From Actinomycetospora straminea (GTDB lineage: Bacteria; Actinomycetota; Actinomycetes; Mycobacteriales; Pseudonocardiaceae), in assembly GCF_028737255.1 (NCBI RefSeq), contig NZ_JAQZAN010000023.1, forward strand, positions 1-64,000: 64,000 bases of DNA, read 5' to 3'. The position numbers and the translations under genes are program-made. The notes beneath the pieces were generated by a model. The model saw only the letters and a list, made by a program, of their open reading frames with translations, made no database searches and was not told where the DNA came from. The stretch's first letter is position 1. Every line of letters starts with the position of its first letter. Below are positions 6,161-13,296 of this stretch, one piece after another.

Positions 6161-6424
6161 TCAGCCCCGGCGCGCCAGGCCCACGGCCACGACGAGGACC
6201 ATCGCCGCGGCGCCCGCGAGGAGGGCCTCGGCGGCCCCGAGCAGCAGGCCCAGCGTCGCGACCAGCGCGATCGCGCCGACCAGCGCGACGGCGAATCCGC
6301 GCACGCCGGCTCCGATGTCCCGTGGCCCAGGAAGCGGACCCGGTGCCAGGCGCGCGGCGAGGTCCGGGTCCGTCCGCGCCAGGTCGGTGGCGAGGGCGCG
6401 GAGGACCCGGTCGTCGCGGTTCAC
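6161..6424 (-). CDS. Small DUF3040-like membrane protein
   Basis: An 87-residue protein. The N-terminal segment [20 protein letters not shown] resembles the DUF3040 start, where a short helix and a DP-F/L-A motif precede two membrane helices. Two hydrophobic segments follow, about residues 38-58 and 61-82. The GTG start at 6424 overlaps the stop of the cytochrome oxidase remnant (GTGA), so translation is coupled to it. No function is known for the family. Confidence 0.6.
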
Positions 6425-7803
6425 CGGTTGCGGGGGTCGGAGCCGGGCAGGTGCTCCTGGCCGGCCTGTCCCGCCGCCGCTTCGCCCATGCTCGGCGCGC
6501 CGGAGCCGACGTGCGCCTCCAGCCGCATCCGCTCCGCGAGGTGCGGGTAGTGCAGCTCGAACGCGGGGCGCTCGGAGCGGATGCGGGGCAGCTCGGTGAA
6601 GTTGTGCCGCGGCGGCGGGCACGACCTCGCCCACTCCAGCGAGTTGCCGTGCCCCCACGGGTCGTCGACCTCGACCGGGCGGCCGAAGCGCCAGCTGTGG
6701 AAGACGTTCCACAGGAACGGCAGCGTCGAGGCCCCGAGGATGAACGCCCCGATCGTCGAGATCGTGTTCAGCAGCGTGAACCCGTCGCTCTCCAGGTAGT
6801 CGGCGTACCGGCGCGGCATGCCCTCGTTGCCCAGCCAGTGCTGCACCAGGAACGTCAGGTGGAACCCGACGAACGTGAGCCAGAAGTGGAACCTGCCGAT
6901 GCGCTCGTCCATCATCCGGCCGGTCATCTTCGGGAACCAGAAGTAGATGCCGGCGTAGGTCGCGAACACGATCGTGCCGAACAGCACGTAGTGGAAGTGG
7001 GCCACCACGAAATAGGTGTCCGAGAGGTGCCAGTCGAGCGAGGGAGCACCCAGGAGGACACCGGTCAGACCGCCGAGCAGGAACGTGACGAGGAACCCGA
7101 GAGCGAACAGCATCGGCGTCTCGAACGTCAGTTGCCCCTTCCACATCGTGCCGATCCAGTTGAAGAACTTGATGCCGGTCGGCACGGCGATGAGGAAGGT
7201 CGTGAAGGCGAAGAACGGCAGCAGGATCGCGCCCGTCGCGTACATGTGGTGGGCCCACACCGCCACCGACAGCGCACCGATCGCGAGCGTCGCGAAGATG
7301 AGCGTCTTGTACCCGAACACGGGCTTGCGACTGAACACCGGGAAGATCTCGGTGACGATGCCGAAGAAGGGCAGCGCGACGATGTAGACCTCGGGGTGGC
7401 CGAAGAACCAGAACAGGTGCTGCCACAGGATCACGCCGCCGTGCTCGGCGGCGAAGATCTGGCTGCCGAGGTGGCGGTCGGCGGCGAGCCCCAGCAGGGC
7501 GGCCGTCAGGATGGGGAACGCGAGCAGCACGAGGAACGTCGTGACCAGGATGTTCCAGGTGAAGATCGGCATCCGGAACATCGTCATGCCGGGCGCGCGC
7601 ATGCAGGCGATGGTCGTCACGAAGTTGACCGCGCCGAGGATGGTGCCGAGGCCGGACACCACCAGGCCCAGGATCCAGAGGTCCTGGCCGAGCCCCGGCG
7701 TGTGCACCGCCGTCGAGAGCGGTGTGTAGGCGAACCACCCGGCGGCCCCGGCGACGGAAATGGCGACGAGGTGGGAATCGCGAGCGCCATGAGGAGTTGA
7801 CAC
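6421..7803 (-). pseudogene. ctaD: Cytochrome c oxidase subunit I, N-terminally truncated
   Basis: About 460 codons read cleanly as subunit I of the aa3 oxidase from the third or fourth transmembrane region onward. GHPEVY (CuB His with the cross-linked Tyr), AHHMYATG (two CuB His) and [11 protein letters not shown] (heme a3 and heme a His) are all present. Actinobacterial subunit I is usually about 570-590 residues. The missing first third carries helices I-III with the other axial His of heme a and the D-channel entry. The homology begins at AGWFAYTPL near 7745, and the preceding codons do not match. Without that His it cannot form the normal centre, so I call it a remnant, probably of an extra copy. 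Confidence 0.75.
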
Positions 7804-7890: not shown

Positions 7891-8487
7891 TCAGAGCAGG
7901 CCGTGCGCCCGGGCGTTGGTGATGACCTGGGCGCGGTTGCGGGCGTCGAGCTTGCGCATGACGTTGTGCAGGTAGGTCTTCACCGTGTTCGGCGAGAGCC
8001 GCAGCCGCTCGCCGATCTCGCCGTTGGTGTGCCCGGCGGCGACGAGGCGCAGGACGTCGTACTCGCGCGGGGTCACGGGCGCACCGGCGACCCCGGCCGC
8101 GTCGACCGCCGCCCCGCGGTAGGCGCCGGTGCGGGCGACCTGCCGGATCGCGTCGCCGAGCACCACCCCCGACGCGTCCTTGACCAGCAGCCCCACCGCG
8201 CCGGCCGCGAGCGTGGGCGCGACCGCCGAGTGCTCCGGGAACGCGGTGAACAGCAGCACGCGGCTCGCCGGCGACACCGCGCGCAGCCGCGGCACCACGT
8301 CGGCGGCCAGGGCGTCGGGCAGGCGCAGGTCCAGCAGCACGACGTCGGGCCGCTCCCGCGCGCACGCCGCCACCGCGCCGGCCGCGTCCGCGGCGTGGCC
8401 CGCCACCTCGATGTCGCTGTGTCGCCCGAGCGCCGTCACCACCCCGTCGCGGACGACGGGGTGGTCGTCGACGACCAGCACCCGCAT
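7891..8487 (-). CDS. NarL/LuxR-type response regulator
   Basis: A 198-residue response regulator. The receiver domain is residues 1-115, with the acidic pair Asp7-Asp8, phosphoacceptor Asp53 in LLDLRLPD and the conserved Lys in LLVKDAS. The C-terminal LuxR/NarL HTH (about 135-195) reads VTPREYDVLRLVAAG, then NGEIGERLRLSPNTVKTYL. The ATG at 8487 is preferred over an in-frame GTG at 8502. It lies directly after the histidine kinase gene, so the two form a two-component system. The truncated oxidase gene lies downstream. Target genes are unknown. Confidence 0.9.
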   Translation of the reverse strand: MRVLVVDDHPVVRDGVVTALGRHSDIEVAGHAADAAGAVAACARERPDVVLLDLRLPDALAADVVPRLRAVSPASRVLLFTAFPEHSAVAPTLAAGAVGLLVKDASGVVLGDAIRQVARTGAYRGAAVDAAGVAGAPVTPREYDVLRLVAAGHTNGEIGERLRLSPNTVKTYLHNVMRKLDARNRAQVITNARAHGLL

Positions 8488-8505
8488 CACGCCCGCGCGC
8501 ACCCG

Positions 8506-9624
8506 TCAGCCCGGCAGCTCGAGACGCCACGTCGTCCCGCCCTGCGGGTCGGCCACGACGCGCAGGGTGCCGCCGAGCCGCGCGACCGCCTCCGTGGTCG
8601 TGGCCAGGCCGACGCCGGGCGCGTGGTCGCGGGGCAGGCCGTCGCCGTCGTCGGTGACGGCGACGACGAGCCCGCCGCCCGCGCGGGCCGCGAGGCTGAC
8701 GACGACGGCCGCGGCGTGCGCGTGCTTCTCGACGTTGAGCAGCGCCTCGCGGACGGCGGCGACGACCACCTCGGTGCGCGAGGGCGCCAGCTCCGGCGGG
8801 TCGTCGAGCACCACCAGCTCCGCGGGCACGCCGGTGCGGTCGCTGAACGCCGAGCAGTCCGCGCGCAGGGCGACCGAGAGCGCGAGCGCGGCGGGCGAGG
8901 CCCGCAGCGTGCGCAGGGAGTCGCGCAGCGCGGCCGACGCCTCGCTCGCCTGGTCCTGCAGGCGGCGCAGGCGGTCGGCGAGCTCCGGGTCGGCGCCGAG
9001 CGCGTCGGACAGGCCGGCGACGCCCGAGCCGATGGCGAAGAGCAGGGCGCCGACGCTGTCGTGCAGCTCGGCGGCCACGCGGCTGCGCTCCTCGTGCACG
9101 GCGACCTCGCGGGCCAGCCGCGCCCGCTCGGCGACGGCGACCGCGAGGGCCACCTCGTCGGCGACCGCCTCCGCCCGCGCCGCCGCGCGGCCGCCGAAGC
9201 TCCCGTCGGCCCGCGCGCCGACGGCGAGCACCCCGAGCAGCCGGTCGTCGCGCCGCACCGGCACGGCGAGGAGCCGCCGCACGCCCTCGAGGTCGATGAG
9301 CCGGTCGAAGGTGTGCGTGATCTCGGCGGAGCCGAAGTAGTCGTCGACCCAGGCGGGCGTCCCGGTGCCGTGGACCTTGCCGGTCAGGCCCAGCCCGCGC
9401 GACACCGACAGTCCCCGCAGCAGCCCGGTGCGGTCACCGGTGAGCTGGGCGAGGGTCAGCTCCGGGGCGTCGTCGTCGACGGGCTCGGCCAGCCACGCCA
9501 CGTCCCCCTCGGTGGCGAGCAGGTCGAGGGCCGCCCGCACCGCCGCGCGCCGGTCGAGCAGGCCGACGAGCTCGGCGTGCGCCCGCGCCACCGCGTCTGC
9601 CACCACGTCTGCCACCGCGTCCAC
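8506..9624 (-). CDS. GAF-domain histidine kinase, NarL-partner type
   Basis: A 372-residue soluble kinase. A GAF domain spans about residues 20-165, a HisKA_3 dimerisation domain follows with the phospho-acceptor His188 in ELHDSVGALLF, and a HATPase domain fills about 275-370 (N box near REALLNVEKHAHA, G boxes near DDGDGLPRDHAPG and GLATTTEAVARLGG). There is no membrane segment, so the signal is intracellular. The first 15 residues (MDAVADVVADAVARA) come from short imperfect DNA repeats. It is co-directional with the response regulator, 18 bases apart. Confidence 0.88.
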   Translation of the reverse strand: MDAVADVVADAVARAHAELVGLLDRRAAVRAALDLLATEGDVAWLAEPVDDDAPELTLAQLTGDRTGLLRGLSVSRGLGLTGKVHGTGTPAWVDDYFGSAEITHTFDRLIDLEGVRRLLAVPVRRDDRLLGVLAVGARADGSFGGRAAARAEAVADEVALAVAVAERARLAREVAVHEERSRVAAELHDSVGALLFAIGSGVAGLSDALGADPELADRLRRLQDQASEASAALRDSLRTLRASPAALALSVALRADCSAFSDRTGVPAELVVLDDPPELAPSRTEVVVAAVREALLNVEKHAHAAAVVVSLAARAGGGLVVAVTDDGDGLPRDHAPGVGLATTTEAVARLGGTLRVVADPQGGTTWRLELPG

Positions 9625-9656: not shown

Positions 9657-11171
9657 TCACGGCGTGAACTGCTTGATCAGTTCGCGGCGCATGATCTTCC
9701 CCGTCGACGTCGCCGGCAGCGCCTCGACGAACCGCACGAGCCGGGGCCGCTTGTAGGCGGCGAGGTGCTCGCCCGCGTACGCGAGGAGCTCCTCCTCGGT
9801 GGGGTCGGTGCCCGCCACCGGGACGACGTAGGCGCAGGCCAGCTCGCCGCGGACGGCGTCGGGCACCGGCCCCGCGGCCACCATCGCGACCTTGGGGTGC
9901 GCGGCGAGGACCCGCTCGACCTCGGCCGGGTAGACGTTGTAGCCACCCGTGATGATCATGTTCTTGCGGCGGTCGACGACGAACACGTGGCCGGTCGCGT
10001 CCATCGTCGCGACGTCGCCGGTGTGCAGCCAGCCGTCCGGTTCGATCGTCTCGGCGGTCGCCTCCGGGTTGCCGTGGTAGCCCGACATGACGATCGGGCC
10101 GCGCACCATCAGCTCCCCCGGCTCGCCGGCCGGGGCGTCGCGGGAGACGTCCTCGAGGTCGGCGATCCGCAGCTCGATGCCGGGCAGCGCCACCCCGATC
10201 GAGCCCGGCACCGGCGGCGCGTACAGGGCGTGCGTGGTGCCCAGTCCCGCCACCTCGGTCATCCCCCACAGCTCGATGAGCGGGGCGCCCGACCGGTCCT
10301 GCCAGCGCTCGATCGTCGAGAGCGGGATCGTCTGCCCGCCGACCGTGCAGCGGGTCAGCGACGACAGGTCGGCGTCCGCGAGGCCGGGGTCGGCGAGCAG
10401 CATCGCGTACATCGCCGGCACGCCCTCGAAGAGCGTCGCGCGGTGCTCGCCGATGAGCCGCAGCGCCTCGCCCGGCGCGAACCGCTCCATGAGCACGACG
10501 GTGCCGCCGGCGAGGAAGGTCCCGTTGATGACGACGTTGCCGTAGACGTGCGGGGCCGGCAGGGCCGTGACGACGACGTCGTCGGGCCGGCGCCCGTGCA
10601 TCGTCGCGGTGAGCGCGCAGTTGAGCAGCACCGCGCGGTGGCTCTGCACCGCGCCCTTCGGGTGGCCGGTGGTGCCGGACGTGTAGCCGATGGTCGAGGG
10701 GGCGTCGGGGTCGACGGTGATCTGCGGGACCGGGTCGTCGCCGGTCAGGAGCTCGTCGAACGCGACCGCGCCGTTCGCCTCCCCGAACGCGACGACCATC
10801 TGCAGCTCCGGCAGGTCCCGCGTCAGCTCGAGGACCGTCGGTGCCTGCTCGGCGCTGGTGAACACCGCGGCCGCGCCGCAGTCGCGCAGCACGAACGCCA
10901 GCTCCTCGGGGGTGAGCATGACGTTCACCGGGTTCACGACCGCGCCCGCCTTCAGCGCGCCGTGGTGGGCGACGACCCACTCCCACCGGTTCTGCGCGTA
11001 CAGCGACACCGGCCGGCCGGCCCGCACCCCCCGCGCCGCGAGCCCGGCGGCCACGCGGTCGCTCAGCGCGTCGAGCTCGGCGAAGGTGAGCGTCCGCGTC
11101 GCGGTCACCAGGGCCGGCTTCGCGCCGAAGCGCGCGCCGACCGAGGGCAGGATGTCGCCGGGTCCGTCCAT
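9657..11171 (-). CDS. Acyl-CoA synthetase / AMP-dependent ligase
   Basis: A 504-residue AMP-forming acid:CoA ligase. The P-loop-like motif YTSGTTGHPKGA, the LWGMTEVAG adenine motif, the WLHTGDVATMD hinge region and the C-terminal STGKIMRREL catalytic Lys are all present. It would activate a carboxylic acid to its CoA thioester through an acyl-adenylate in the cytoplasm. The ATG at 11171 is chosen over the upstream extension because the fold begins within a few residues. The gene is divergent from the linalool dehydratase/isomerase-like gene 86 bases away, so it might act on an acid derived from that pathway. The substrate is not readable. Confidence 0.88.
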   Translation of the reverse strand: MDGPGDILPSVGARFGAKPALVTATRTLTFAELDALSDRVAAGLAARGVRAGRPVSLYAQNRWEWVVAHHGALKAGAVVNPVNVMLTPEELAFVLRDCGAAAVFTSAEQAPTVLELTRDLPELQMVVAFGEANGAVAFDELLTGDDPVPQITVDPDAPSTIGYTSGTTGHPKGAVQSHRAVLLNCALTATMHGRRPDDVVVTALPAPHVYGNVVINGTFLAGGTVVLMERFAPGEALRLIGEHRATLFEGVPAMYAMLLADPGLADADLSSLTRCTVGGQTIPLSTIERWQDRSGAPLIELWGMTEVAGLGTTHALYAPPVPGSIGVALPGIELRIADLEDVSRDAPAGEPGELMVRGPIVMSGYHGNPEATAETIEPDGWLHTGDVATMDATGHVFVVDRRKNMIITGGYNVYPAEVERVLAAHPKVAMVAAGPVPDAVRGELACAYVVPVAGTDPTEEELLAYAGEHLAAYKRPRLVRFVEALPATSTGKIMRRELIKQFTP

Positions 11172-11257
11172 GACCGGGACGACACCGCACCGCGGCCCCG
11201 CGCGGCACACCCGAACGGGTGTGGCGGTGGCGTCGTCCCTGCGTACGGTCGGGGCGC

Positions 11258-12766
11258 ATGACGGTCACGGCACGCACGACGACGGCGTCGGCAGGGGTCC
11301 TCGACCAGGACCAGCTCGGGCACCTGAAGCACTGGGACGACCTGTCCCGGCGGCTGCCGCACGACTGGTCGCTCATGCAGGGCAAGGGCGCCGGCGAGGA
11401 CGACTTCGGCAGCTACCGCTTCCAGCTCGCGTACATGGTCTACGGGCTCGCGCTCGCCCACCGCCACCGCCTGCCCGCCGCGCCCGGCCTGTTCCGGCCG
11501 ACGATCCAGCGCCTCGTCGAGAAGCTGCTCATGCCCGACGTGTGGCTCTACTGGCGCGACGTCTCCCGCGGCGGGATGGTCATGAACGCCCACCTCTCGG
11601 ACGGCTACCACGAGGAGTGGGACCCGGTGGTGCGCGACAACATCATGTACTCCGCCTACGTGCAGTCGTGCTCGCTGCTGCACGACCACCTCTTCGCCGA
11701 CGACCGCTACGCGCAGCCGGGCGCGCTGACCTTCGAGCACTGGTCGTTCTTCTGGGGTGGCGAGCCCAAGCGCTTCGTCTACGACCGCGAGACGCTCAAC
11801 GAGCACCTCTACTGGCAGATGGTGCAGAACGGCTACCTCGGGATCGCGTGCGAGCCGAACTGCGTGTTCCAGATCTGCAACCAGCCCGCGATCCTCGGCT
11901 TCCGGCTCCACGACGTGATCACCGGCGGCGACCGCGCCACCGAGGTCGTCGCCGGCTACCAGCAGGCCTGGGCGGACTTCGGCCGGCTCGACGACACCGG
12001 GCACTACAACCAGATGATCCTCGAGGACTCGAGGGTCGTGCGGCCCAACGCGCTGCAGGCGCCGTGGGTGGACGCCTGGTGCGGGGCGCTGATGAACACC
12101 TGGAACCACGACTTCGTCCACGAGCACTACCCGCGCCAGGTCGCCGACTTCCTCGAGCCCGGGCCCGACGGCACCCTCTCGGTCCGGTCGACGCCCGCCA
12201 TGGAGGTCATGGGCCAGACCGTCGTCAACGACACCTGCGACCTCGGCTGGGTGGCGGCGTGGGCGTCGGAGATGGGCGATCACGCCACCCTCGACGGCGT
12301 CCTCGCCCACGCCGACCGCTTCATGGCGCCGACCTGGCGCGACGGCGCGCTGTACTACCCGCGCAACGACACGAAGACCGACGCCGAGGGCCACCGCACG
12401 GAGATCGAGCCGATGACCGGCAACGTCCTGCTCGGCTACGCGCGCCTGAACGTGCCCGACGGGCTGCACGAGCTCTACCAGCACCCGTGGGGCCCGGAGC
12501 ACTTCGCCGAGCCCGCGCTCACCGAGGTCGGGCGGGACGTCGAGGTCAGCCGCGCGGAGGTCGTCGACGGGGTGCTGCACGCCCGGCTCCGCCGCCGCGG
12601 TGTCGAGGACGGCCTCGAGGACGACGGCGCCGTGGTGCTCGGGCGCGTGCCCGAGGGCGCCCGGCTGCGGGTCGACGGCCAGGAGGTGGCGGCGACGCCG
12701 GTGGCCGAGGGCCTGCGCCTCGACGTCCCCGCCGGCCCGGCGCACGACGTCGAGCTCGTGCCGTGA
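11258..12766 (+). CDS. Linalool dehydratase/isomerase (Ldi) domain protein
   Basis: A 502-residue protein whose first 400 or so residues resemble the Ldi fold of Castellaniella linalool dehydratase/isomerase. IACEPNCVFQICNQPAIL keeps Cys198 and Cys207 at the spacing of the two active-site cysteines of that enzyme, and the YRFQLAYMVYGLA and DNIMYSAY segments also align. At the position of the enzyme's active-site His in MYKGH this protein has Tyr134, so chemistry or substrate may differ. The last 90 or so residues form an extra beta-rich domain. No signal peptide is seen, unlike the periplasmic reference enzyme. It is coupled to the SCO1-like gene by a GTGA overlap. A terpene alcohol or alkene substrate is inference from family. 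Confidence 0.75.
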   Translation: MTVTARTTTASAGVLDQDQLGHLKHWDDLSRRLPHDWSLMQGKGAGEDDFGSYRFQLAYMVYGLALAHRHRLPAAPGLFRPTIQRLVEKLLMPDVWLYWRDVSRGGMVMNAHLSDGYHEEWDPVVRDNIMYSAYVQSCSLLHDHLFADDRYAQPGALTFEHWSFFWGGEPKRFVYDRETLNEHLYWQMVQNGYLGIACEPNCVFQICNQPAILGFRLHDVITGGDRATEVVAGYQQAWADFGRLDDTGHYNQMILEDSRVVRPNALQAPWVDAWCGALMNTWNHDFVHEHYPRQVADFLEPGPDGTLSVRSTPAMEVMGQTVVNDTCDLGWVAAWASEMGDHATLDGVLAHADRFMAPTWRDGALYYPRNDTKTDAEGHRTEIEPMTGNVLLGYARLNVPDGLHELYQHPWGPEHFAEPALTEVGRDVEVSRAEVVDGVLHARLRRRGVEDGLEDDGAVVLGRVPEGARLRVDGQEVAATPVAEGLRLDVPAGPAHDVELVP

Positions 12767-13296
12767 GCGCGCCGACCGGCCGGCCCACCCGGGTCGCCTT
12801 CGCGCTCGTCGACCACGACGGGCACCCCGTCACGCTCGAGGACCACCGCGGCTCCTGGCTGCTGGTGCAGTTCGGGTTCACGTCGTGCCGCGTCGTCTGC
12901 CCACGGGCGCTGACGAAGCTCTCGGCGGCGCTCGACGAGCTGGGGCCGCTCGCCGCGCAGGTGCGGCCGCTCTACGTCAGCGTCGACCCGGAGCGCGACA
13001 CCCCCTCTGTGATGCGCGCGTTCCTCACCGCGTCGTATCCCCGCTTCACCGGGCTCACGGGCACCCCGGAGCAGGTCGAGGCGGCCAAGGACGCCTTCCG
13101 CGTGTTCGCCCGACGCCGCCCCGACCCCGAGGACCCCGACGGCTACGCCGTGCCGCACACGGCGATCACCTACCTCGTCGGCCCCGACGGGGAGCTCGCG
13201 CGCCACTGGCCCGACACCGCGACGGCGTCCACGATCGCCGCCGACCTCGCCGACGTCCTGCGCCCGTCAGGGGGTCACGGCACCCCTCACGCGTAG
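12763..13296 (+). CDS. SCO1/SenC-family thioredoxin-fold protein, no anchor
   Basis: A 177-residue SCO1-like protein. The copper or redox motif is Cys42-x3-Cys46 (TSCRVVCPRAL), with the distal conserved His132 (VPHTAITYLVG) and the SVDPERDTP loop. SCO1 proteins normally deliver copper to oxidase CuA from outside the membrane and carry a lipobox or membrane anchor. This one starts directly at SAPTGRPTRVAF with no anchor visible, so it is probably cytoplasmic or wrongly localised for that role. Its GTG overlaps the stop of the Ldi-like gene, so the two are made together. A thiol-redox or metal role for the Ldi-like cysteines is speculation. Confidence 0.8.
   Translation: MSAPTGRPTRVAFALVDHDGHPVTLEDHRGSWLLVQFGFTSCRVVCPRALTKLSAALDELGPLAAQVRPLYVSVDPERDTPSVMRAFLTASYPRFTGLTGTPEQVEAAKDAFRVFARRRPDPEDPDGYAVPHTAITYLVGPDGELARHWPDTATASTIAADLADVLRPSGGHGTPHA

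Follow-up and report, generated by a model that had tools for sequence, protein, structure and literature searches.

What would a relative of a linalool-converting enzyme need from a copper-site assembly factor? The question is raised by a locus in the 64,000-nucleotide stretch analysed here (hereafter the window; positions 1 to 64,000 of contig NZ_JAQZAN010000023.1, assembly GCF_028737255.1) from Actinomycetospora straminea, in which a gene for a protein resembling linalool dehydratase/isomerase (LDI) overlaps a gene for an SCO1-like protein. SCO proteins are assembly factors of respiratory copper sites and act outside the cytosol. An original prediction, made from the letters of the window, had suggested that the SCO1-like partner keeps the cysteines of the Ldi-like protein reduced or metallated. 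We find that the partner accompanies one clade of Ldi-family proteins, marked by a third invariant cysteine, Cys202, which that prediction had missed. The reduced-or-metallated class of explanation is now the best supported one, since the pair recurs in more than one phylum, strong SCO matches are otherwise rare in the two families sampled, and Cys202 creates a C-x3-C pair; within this class, reduction is our tentative preference and metallation a more doubtful option.

The identities of the two proteins proved to be as predicted. Both open reading frames (ORFs) lie at the positions given in Table 1 and have the bases GTGA in common; the Ldi-like protein matches PF18566 (Ldi) of Pfam with 371 bits over residues 54-372 (cut-off 26.1) and no model in NCBIfam, and the SCO1-like protein matches PF02630 (SCO1-SenC) with 146 bits (cut-off 22.8). 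Above these cut-offs the genome holds one Ldi and one SCO1 protein, with one further SCO match just below. In sequence searches of the PDB, only LDI chains were significant for the former (E ~3e-8, or 3e-30 with a mixed profile), and the latter retrieved human SCO1 (E 1e-34). The AlphaFold2 model of the Ldi-like protein, based on a 33-row alignment (mean predicted local distance difference test score 88.5, predicted template modelling score 0.91), found LDI at all of ranks 1-27 in a Foldseek comparison with the PDB, the best match having an E value of 4e-16, a TM score of 0.78 by target length and 19% identity. An LDI-like (alpha/alpha)6 fold is therefore predicted, and the additional C-terminal domain that had been noticed appears in the model as a region of beta-strands; relatives such as the 734-residue protein of locus L031 likewise extend past the Ldi domain, a comparison made on sequence and not on folds. 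Localisation was judged from hydropathy alone for all proteins. A Kyte-Doolittle scan (not SignalP) found no hydrophobic N-terminus on the Ldi-like protein, and no export signal, lipobox or membrane anchor was seen on the SCO by the same kind of scan. The claim that both proteins lack an export signal thus holds, and the absence of such signals suggests a cytosolic location.

As predicted from their spacing, Cys198 and Cys207 align with the active-site cysteines Cys171 and Cys180 of LDI, and the motifs C-E-P...C-N and N-I-M are conserved between the two proteins. Cys202, lying between them, aligns with Asn175 of LDI. Across all 32 rows of our alignment (A1), C198, C202 and C207 are the only invariant cysteines; the others of the six in the window protein, C138, C275 and C327, occur in 47, 72 and 69% of the 32 aligned relatives, and His22 and His68 are invariant as well. 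Since C138 is the first cysteine of the protein, the disulfide that caps LDI (C48-C101) is impossible here. According to the secondary structure of the model, C202 starts a short strand (202-204) and C207 a helix (206-222). Phe204 aligns with Phe177 of LDI, which we take to be a pocket residue, and C202 should face the pocket side of the modelled protein if Phe204 does.

The significance of C202 emerged from a survey of 120 loci with a readable motif, representing 80 distinct Ldi-family proteins. Loci in which the pattern was not found (L035, L139, L141 and L146) were left out of the counts, as were L093, whose Ldi match begins only at about residue 190 and which has C202, and the remnant L086. 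C202, in the form C198-x3-C202-x4-C207, is present in 38 of the 80 proteins, and the remaining 42 carry W (26), L (15) or Q (1) at this position. When both window proteins were searched against the fetched loci by tblastn, the SCO gene adjoined Ldi in most close relatives; it was present in the locus of 34 of the 38 C202 proteins and of none of the 42 others (Fisher 1.7e-18, ignoring shared descent), a complete split in this sample in that no SCO occurs without C202. These counts refer to flanks of at most 12 kb, many of them only ~1.5 kb, beyond which a more distant SCO would escape detection. Adjacency is thus widespread and conserved across phyla, not confined to one genome, and chance adjacency was dropped as an explanation, given this breadth across loci and genomes and the split with C202. 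In 37 of the 38 C202 proteins, including that of the window, the sequence ahead of the Ldi domain shows no transmembrane-like segment. Nevertheless, SCO goes with C202 and not with solubility, because 14 of the 42 proteins without C202 also lack such a segment (some having little upstream sequence) and none of these 14 has SCO in its locus. Tyr134, which had been singled out as well, does occupy the position of the active-site His129 of LDI, and it was dropped as a distinguishing feature: aromatic residues are usual there across the family (Y, W or F in 42/42 proteins without C202), and His occurs in 2 of the 38 C202 proteins.

Four C202 proteins have no SCO in their locus (L016, L019, L024 and L029), and for three of them an anchorless SCO is found elsewhere in the genome. 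P. eucalypti (L016) has a second Ldi copy with SCO (L072), giving two C202-Ldi and one SCO in the genome; Prauserella (L024) has another Ldi-SCO pair (L069); and in Mycobacterium E1747 (L019) the anchorless SCO shares a 72,741-base contig with Ldi, at a distance of ~19 kb. Among the linked SCOs, C42 and C46 are present in 38/38 rows of the alignment (the window sequence being counted twice) and His132 in 37/38, the remaining row (L025) being gapped there; from these conserved ligands the window SCO may be a copper binder. The linked SCOs of the loci surveyed for overlap have no hydrophobic N-terminus (highest 19-residue hydropathy mean 0.91), and the same applies to those of L067, L072, L086, L093, L124 and L126; six SCOs unlinked to Ldi have means of 1.57-1.92. 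The 4-base overlap recurs in 22 of the 31 distinct pairs measured, with start codons chosen by the analyst (L072, L124 and L126 were left out and L025 is broken). In L039, the gene order of the pair is reversed.

The association also holds at the level of genomes, for which even samples of each group, not complete sets, were screened. Across the phylum, 7 of 396 genomes have an Ldi match and, the weak match L035 apart, the only C202 type is the window's own. In the family of the window organism, Ldi matches occur in 36 of 297 genomes and the C202 type in 24, read with the full motif in 23 and from a partial sequence showing C202 in one (G612). SCO matches of at least 90 bits were found in all 24 of these genomes, beside Ldi, versus 6 of the 273 others; any SCO match at E 0.001 occurs in 57 genomes, 27 of which have only weak ones (at most 42.1 bits; best in G783, E 5.5e-10). 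In G564, a linked SCO follows a C-terminal Ldi remnant (L155/L086) with no further Ldi piece within 12 kb, which from its sequence appears to be a pair in decay, and the SCOs of G616, G538, G568, G530 and G761 have a hydrophobic N-terminal stretch, four with a lipobox recognised by eye. In the family of Rhodococcus koreensis, where at most three Ldi candidates were scored per genome, C202-Ldi occurs in 3 of 401 genomes (E <1e-248, all other matches >1e-38); SCO of at least 90 bits is present in all three (each at least 140 bits) and in 0 of the 398 others, the sole other SCO at E 1e-6 being lipoprotein-like (G1021, 62.6 bits). Altogether, of seven SCOs in genomes without C202-Ldi in both families, six look exported and one follows the Ldi remnant. 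In addition, G768 has a second high-scoring Ldi copy.

Phylogenies of both partners agree with this picture. In the Ldi tree, a branch with 100/100 support separates the 38 C202 proteins from the rest. In the SCO tree, 37 linked SCOs group together (100/99), those of E1747, G564 and G612 among them, with the unlinked SCOs outside. The two clades would fit a single origin of the pair and its joint spread. C202-type Ldi was found in several actinobacterial genera and on plasmids of Agrobacterium vitis/Allorhizobium and Variovorax. Among the plasmid records, through which alone the Pseudomonadota were sampled, the eight best SCO matches (53-57% identity) fall in the same eight records as the eight best Ldi matches, and the next SCO match has 43% identity.

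We lean, with somewhat less than even confidence, towards a cytosolic tertiary-allylic-alcohol isomerase/(de)hydratase whose C198-x3-C202 pair is kept reduced by its own SCO. The Ldi-like protein would be a soluble isomerase/(de)hydratase of tertiary allylic alcohols, either linalool-like or hemiterpene (2-methyl-3-buten-2-ol to prenol), using C198 and C207 as LDI uses C171 and C180. C202 would be a resolving or protecting thiol in aerobic cells, through which an oxidised catalytic C198 would pass into a reversible C198-C202 disulfide, and the co-translated anchorless SCO, with its thioredoxin fold and C-x3-C, would be the dedicated reductase that reopens it. A parallel would be cytochrome oxidase subunit II, whose cysteine pair is a target of SCO/TlpA; SCO proteins are able to act as thiol-disulfide oxidoreductases, and SCO/TlpA reduce or metallate the CuA pair (accessible portion of PMC6696091). 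In favour of the proposal stand the link of SCO to the C202 clade, the need of LDI and of the Thauera linalool isomerase Lis for reduction, and the alcohol and aldehyde dehydrogenase and CoA-ligase genes in four related loci. Several points weigh against the proposal. The copper ligand His132 is kept in every SCO row that reaches it and might not be needed by a pure reductase; for reducing such a disulfide, the thioredoxin system of the cytosol could suffice, with no dedicated SCO; and among the sampled actinobacteria, which are presumably aerobic, the other Ldi-type proteins do without both C202 and SCO. Furthermore, the 29-kb plasmid pRSLBG43 of R. erythropolis (L029) carries C202 and no SCO, the SCO of Variovorax lies ~10 kb from Ldi in the same cluster, and no close homologues of alcohol dehydrogenase (ADH) or aldehyde dehydrogenase (ALDH) were found in the window genome, the best being 34% and 38% identical.

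The conserved SCO ligands C42, C46 and H132 would be readily explained if the Ldi-like protein were a copper enzyme, to which SCO delivers Cu(I) at C198/C202/C207 and in which a Cu(I)-thiolate centre serves to bind or activate the alkene or allylic alcohol; we regard this as possible but rather doubtful. The spacing of C198-x3-C202 is that of CuA, a known SCO target (by the motif as generally known), SCO occurs in the locus only for C202 members of the 80-protein sample, and in 3/3 loci of a separate Ldi subclade a gene for Caa3_CtaG, a putative factor for assembling copper sites, follows Ldi. Moreover, the Sco of S. lividans metallates CuA without having thiol-reductase activity (accessible portion of PMC6696091). 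Copper would, however, take up thiols that must be free for catalysis, position 202 of the CtaG-linked Ldi proteins is occupied by W, and no copper gene is prominent in the neighbour clusters that recur among the 20 loci compared, a weak argument, as the crude gene caller recovered SCO in only 7/20. To our knowledge LDI works without a metal, and we know of few cytosolic cuproenzymes; both were counted against copper. The redox role of SCO is favoured over the copper one because catalysis needs free thiols and because of the cytosolic location. Slightly more doubtful is the specific form in which the locus would represent cytosolic cuproenzymes of a new class: an allylic-alcohol isomerase/hydratase of Ldi fold would carry a Cu(I)-tris-thiolate at C198/C202/C207, loaded by its dedicated anchorless SCO, and would bind the alkene through Cu(I). 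Copper is known to bind ethylene in plant receptors.

The distances between SCO and Ldi in Variovorax and Mycobacterium E1747, with other catabolic genes around them, would suit a partner at the level of the pathway, serving another enzyme of the route or removing peroxide without ever touching Ldi. We consider this improbable, as no other neighbour tested by tblastn tracks Ldi as tightly as SCO (CoA ligase in 10/20 loci, ADH and ALDH in few), most of the measured pairs overlap by four bases, and the presence of SCO splits with a residue in the active-site loop of Ldi. Very improbable, finally, is an ordinary cytochrome oxidase assembly factor placed by chance near the ctaD-like ORF 3.5 kb upstream. 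The window SCO is the sole SCO1 over the cut-off in its genome, but it has no export signal, whereas CuA lies outside the membrane; 267 of the 273 family genomes without C202-Ldi lack any SCO reaching 90 bits, and their oxidases presumably need none in most cases, since these genomes lack it. In addition, ctaD was found only in L009 among 17 Ldi loci examined (with ~8 kb of flank as a rule), and SCO travels with Ldi on the Agrobacterium and Variovorax plasmids. Reduction of a protective C198-C202 disulfide remains our tentative choice for the pair, closely followed by Cu(I) loading.

Table 1. Features of the Ldi/SCO locus and of related loci (window coordinates unless a locus is named)
Feature	Position	Strand	Details and basis
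Ldi-like protein	11258..12766	+	502 aa, PF18566, soluble, no signal peptide seen
Tyr134 codon of Ldi-like protein	11657..11659	+	aligns with LDI His129
Motif C198-E-P-N-C202-V-F-Q-I-C207 of Ldi-like protein	11849..11878	+	alignments to LDI and 32 relatives
C-terminal beta-strand region of Ldi-like protein (predicted)	12515..12763	+	~residues 420-502, AlphaFold2 secondary structure
GTGA, SCO start overlapping Ldi stop	12763..12766	+	sequence
Anchorless SCO1/SenC protein	12763..13296	+	177 aa, PF02630
SCO C42-R-V-V-C46, metal/redox pair	12886..12900	+	alignment of linked SCOs
Distal His132 of SCO, where SCO proteins have a copper ligand	13156..13158	+	alignment of linked SCOs
AMP-binding coenzyme A (CoA) ligase, divergent	9657..11210	-	homologues near Ldi in other loci
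GAF histidine kinase and response regulator	7891-9624	-	beside CoA ligase
ctaD-like ORF	6421-7803	-	460 aa
Caa3_CtaG gene, L031	11585-12433
Caa3_CtaG gene, L065	2974-3693
Caa3_CtaG gene, L137	1-543
DUF1942 lipoprotein-like gene, L029	13789-14400
SCO and following genes, Mycobacterium E1747, L154	3622-9148
Ldi/SCO cluster, Variovorax L026	1576-13554

The surroundings of the pair bear on the possible pathway. Homologues of the CoA ligase divergent from Ldi in the window stand near Ldi in 10 of the 20 loci compared, the window included, among them operons of Rhodococcus and Mycolicibacterium; the window ligase shows 57% identity. In R. koreensis, Mycolicibacterium, Mycobacterium E1747 and pRSLBG43, Ldi is accompanied by a Fis-type regulator, an ALDH, an ADH of the medium-chain dehydrogenase/reductase type and an AMP-binding CoA ligase, genes that share 48-77% identity with the Mycolicibacterium copies, one short piece excepted. 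Linalool and myrcene catabolism proceeds from the tertiary to the primary allylic alcohol, the aldehyde, the acid and the CoA ester, and by analogy the gene set of these four loci appears to match this order of steps. The order is taken from relatives because the window genome has no close ADH or ALDH, and a conserved Ldi operon with these enzymes was dropped for it on the same ground. Linalool and 2-methyl-3-buten-2-ol are both plausible substrates by analogy; the latter may be mineralised via isomerisation to prenol in some bacteria (accessible portion of PMC4791888). In the comparison of recurring neighbours, which is incomplete owing to the gene caller and in which clusters were named by eye, none of the clusters shared by 3 or more of the 20 loci was recognised as a thiamine pyrophosphate (TPP) enzyme; the idea of a 2-hydroxyisobutyrate/TPP lyase had come from Variovorax. 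There, the Ldi/SCO cluster includes a TPP-binding enzyme, a short-chain dehydrogenase/reductase, an ADH, an alpha/beta hydrolase and a branched-chain-amino-acid-type ABC transporter, a different catabolic context. In Mycobacterium E1747, genes of the homogentisate-dioxygenase-like, FAA-hydrolase and CoA-transferase kinds come after the anchorless SCO, all upstream of the regulator-ALDH-ADH-ligase-Ldi series. On pRSLBG43, the expected place of SCO is taken by a DUF1942 lipoprotein-like gene.

Other neighbours were noted in passing. The GAF kinase and the response regulator that neighbour the CoA ligase are retained in several Actinomycetospora and Pseudonocardia loci and possibly form a pathway sensor. 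The ctaD-like ORF seems to lack its N-terminal part, judging from the usual length of ctaD, and has homologues in A. lemnae (L009, 93%) and as a second copy in the window genome (L114 region, 84%). The Caa3_CtaG genes lie 3' of Ldi in all three loci of the separate W202 subclade, whose proteins have a long N-terminal region, and this putative link would tie the Ldi family a second time to factors that assemble copper sites.

The pair is of interest for both of its partners. The role of SCO, as reductase or as metallochaperone, differs between organisms (accessible portion of PMC6696091), and because the SCO of this set has a single apparent client, a soluble enzyme in which three cysteines are conserved, this role becomes testable in a two-protein system. 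If the copper reading were true, SCO would be a general C-x3-C metallochaperone beyond respiration. LDI, in turn, is sought for the production of dienes and terpene alcohols. It is sensitive to O2, and production in the E. coli cytosol yielded only traces of product (accessible portion of PMC6600392); a soluble subfamily with its own helper may offer an air-tolerant, cytosolic version.

Among known systems, LDI (LinD) of Castellaniella defragrans (EC 4.2.1.127 / 5.4.4.4) is the closest, sharing with the window protein the modelled fold and two active-site cysteines at equal spacing. It is periplasmic, O2-sensitive and dithiothreitol-requiring, and its active-site cysteines, there numbered C170/C179, must be reduced (accessible portion of PMC6600392). 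In contrast, the window protein, 19% identical, has no signal peptide and no capping disulfide, carries Tyr in place of His129, and has the additional Cys202, a C-terminal region and an SCO partner. Linalool isomerase (Lis) of Thauera linaloolentis, compared here by its description, is membrane-anchored with four predicted N-terminal transmembrane segments. Its Ldi-like domain faces the cytoplasm, and the enzyme shows no activity before it has been reduced under anoxia, a reductant being needed (accessible portion of PMC4791888); 37 of the 38 C202 proteins have no such segment upstream, and they carry C202 and mostly SCO. No SCO partner of LDI or Lis is described in the accessible portions of PMC6600392 and PMC4791888. 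We found no open-access literature, patents not being covered, that joins linalool dehydratase with SCO1, names PF18566 or gives a measured activity for any C202 member, and "cytoplasmic Sco" was absent from the open-access matches listed; of the matches listed for pocket residues of LDI, none had LDI as its subject by title. With SCO1/SenC proteins, the window SCO shares PF02630, C-x3-C-P, D-P-x-R-D and the distal His; it differs from them in having no anchor, lipobox or signal and in being tied to an Ldi-family enzyme instead of cytochrome oxidase. The CuA site of cytochrome oxidase subunit II, a C-x3-C motif, is the classical SCO target. The Ldi-like protein has no His/Met at the spacing of the following CuA ligands, again by the motif as generally known, and has the predicted Ldi fold, not that of a cupredoxin, and a predicted cytosolic location, but its C198-x3-C202 pair has the same C-x3-C spacing.

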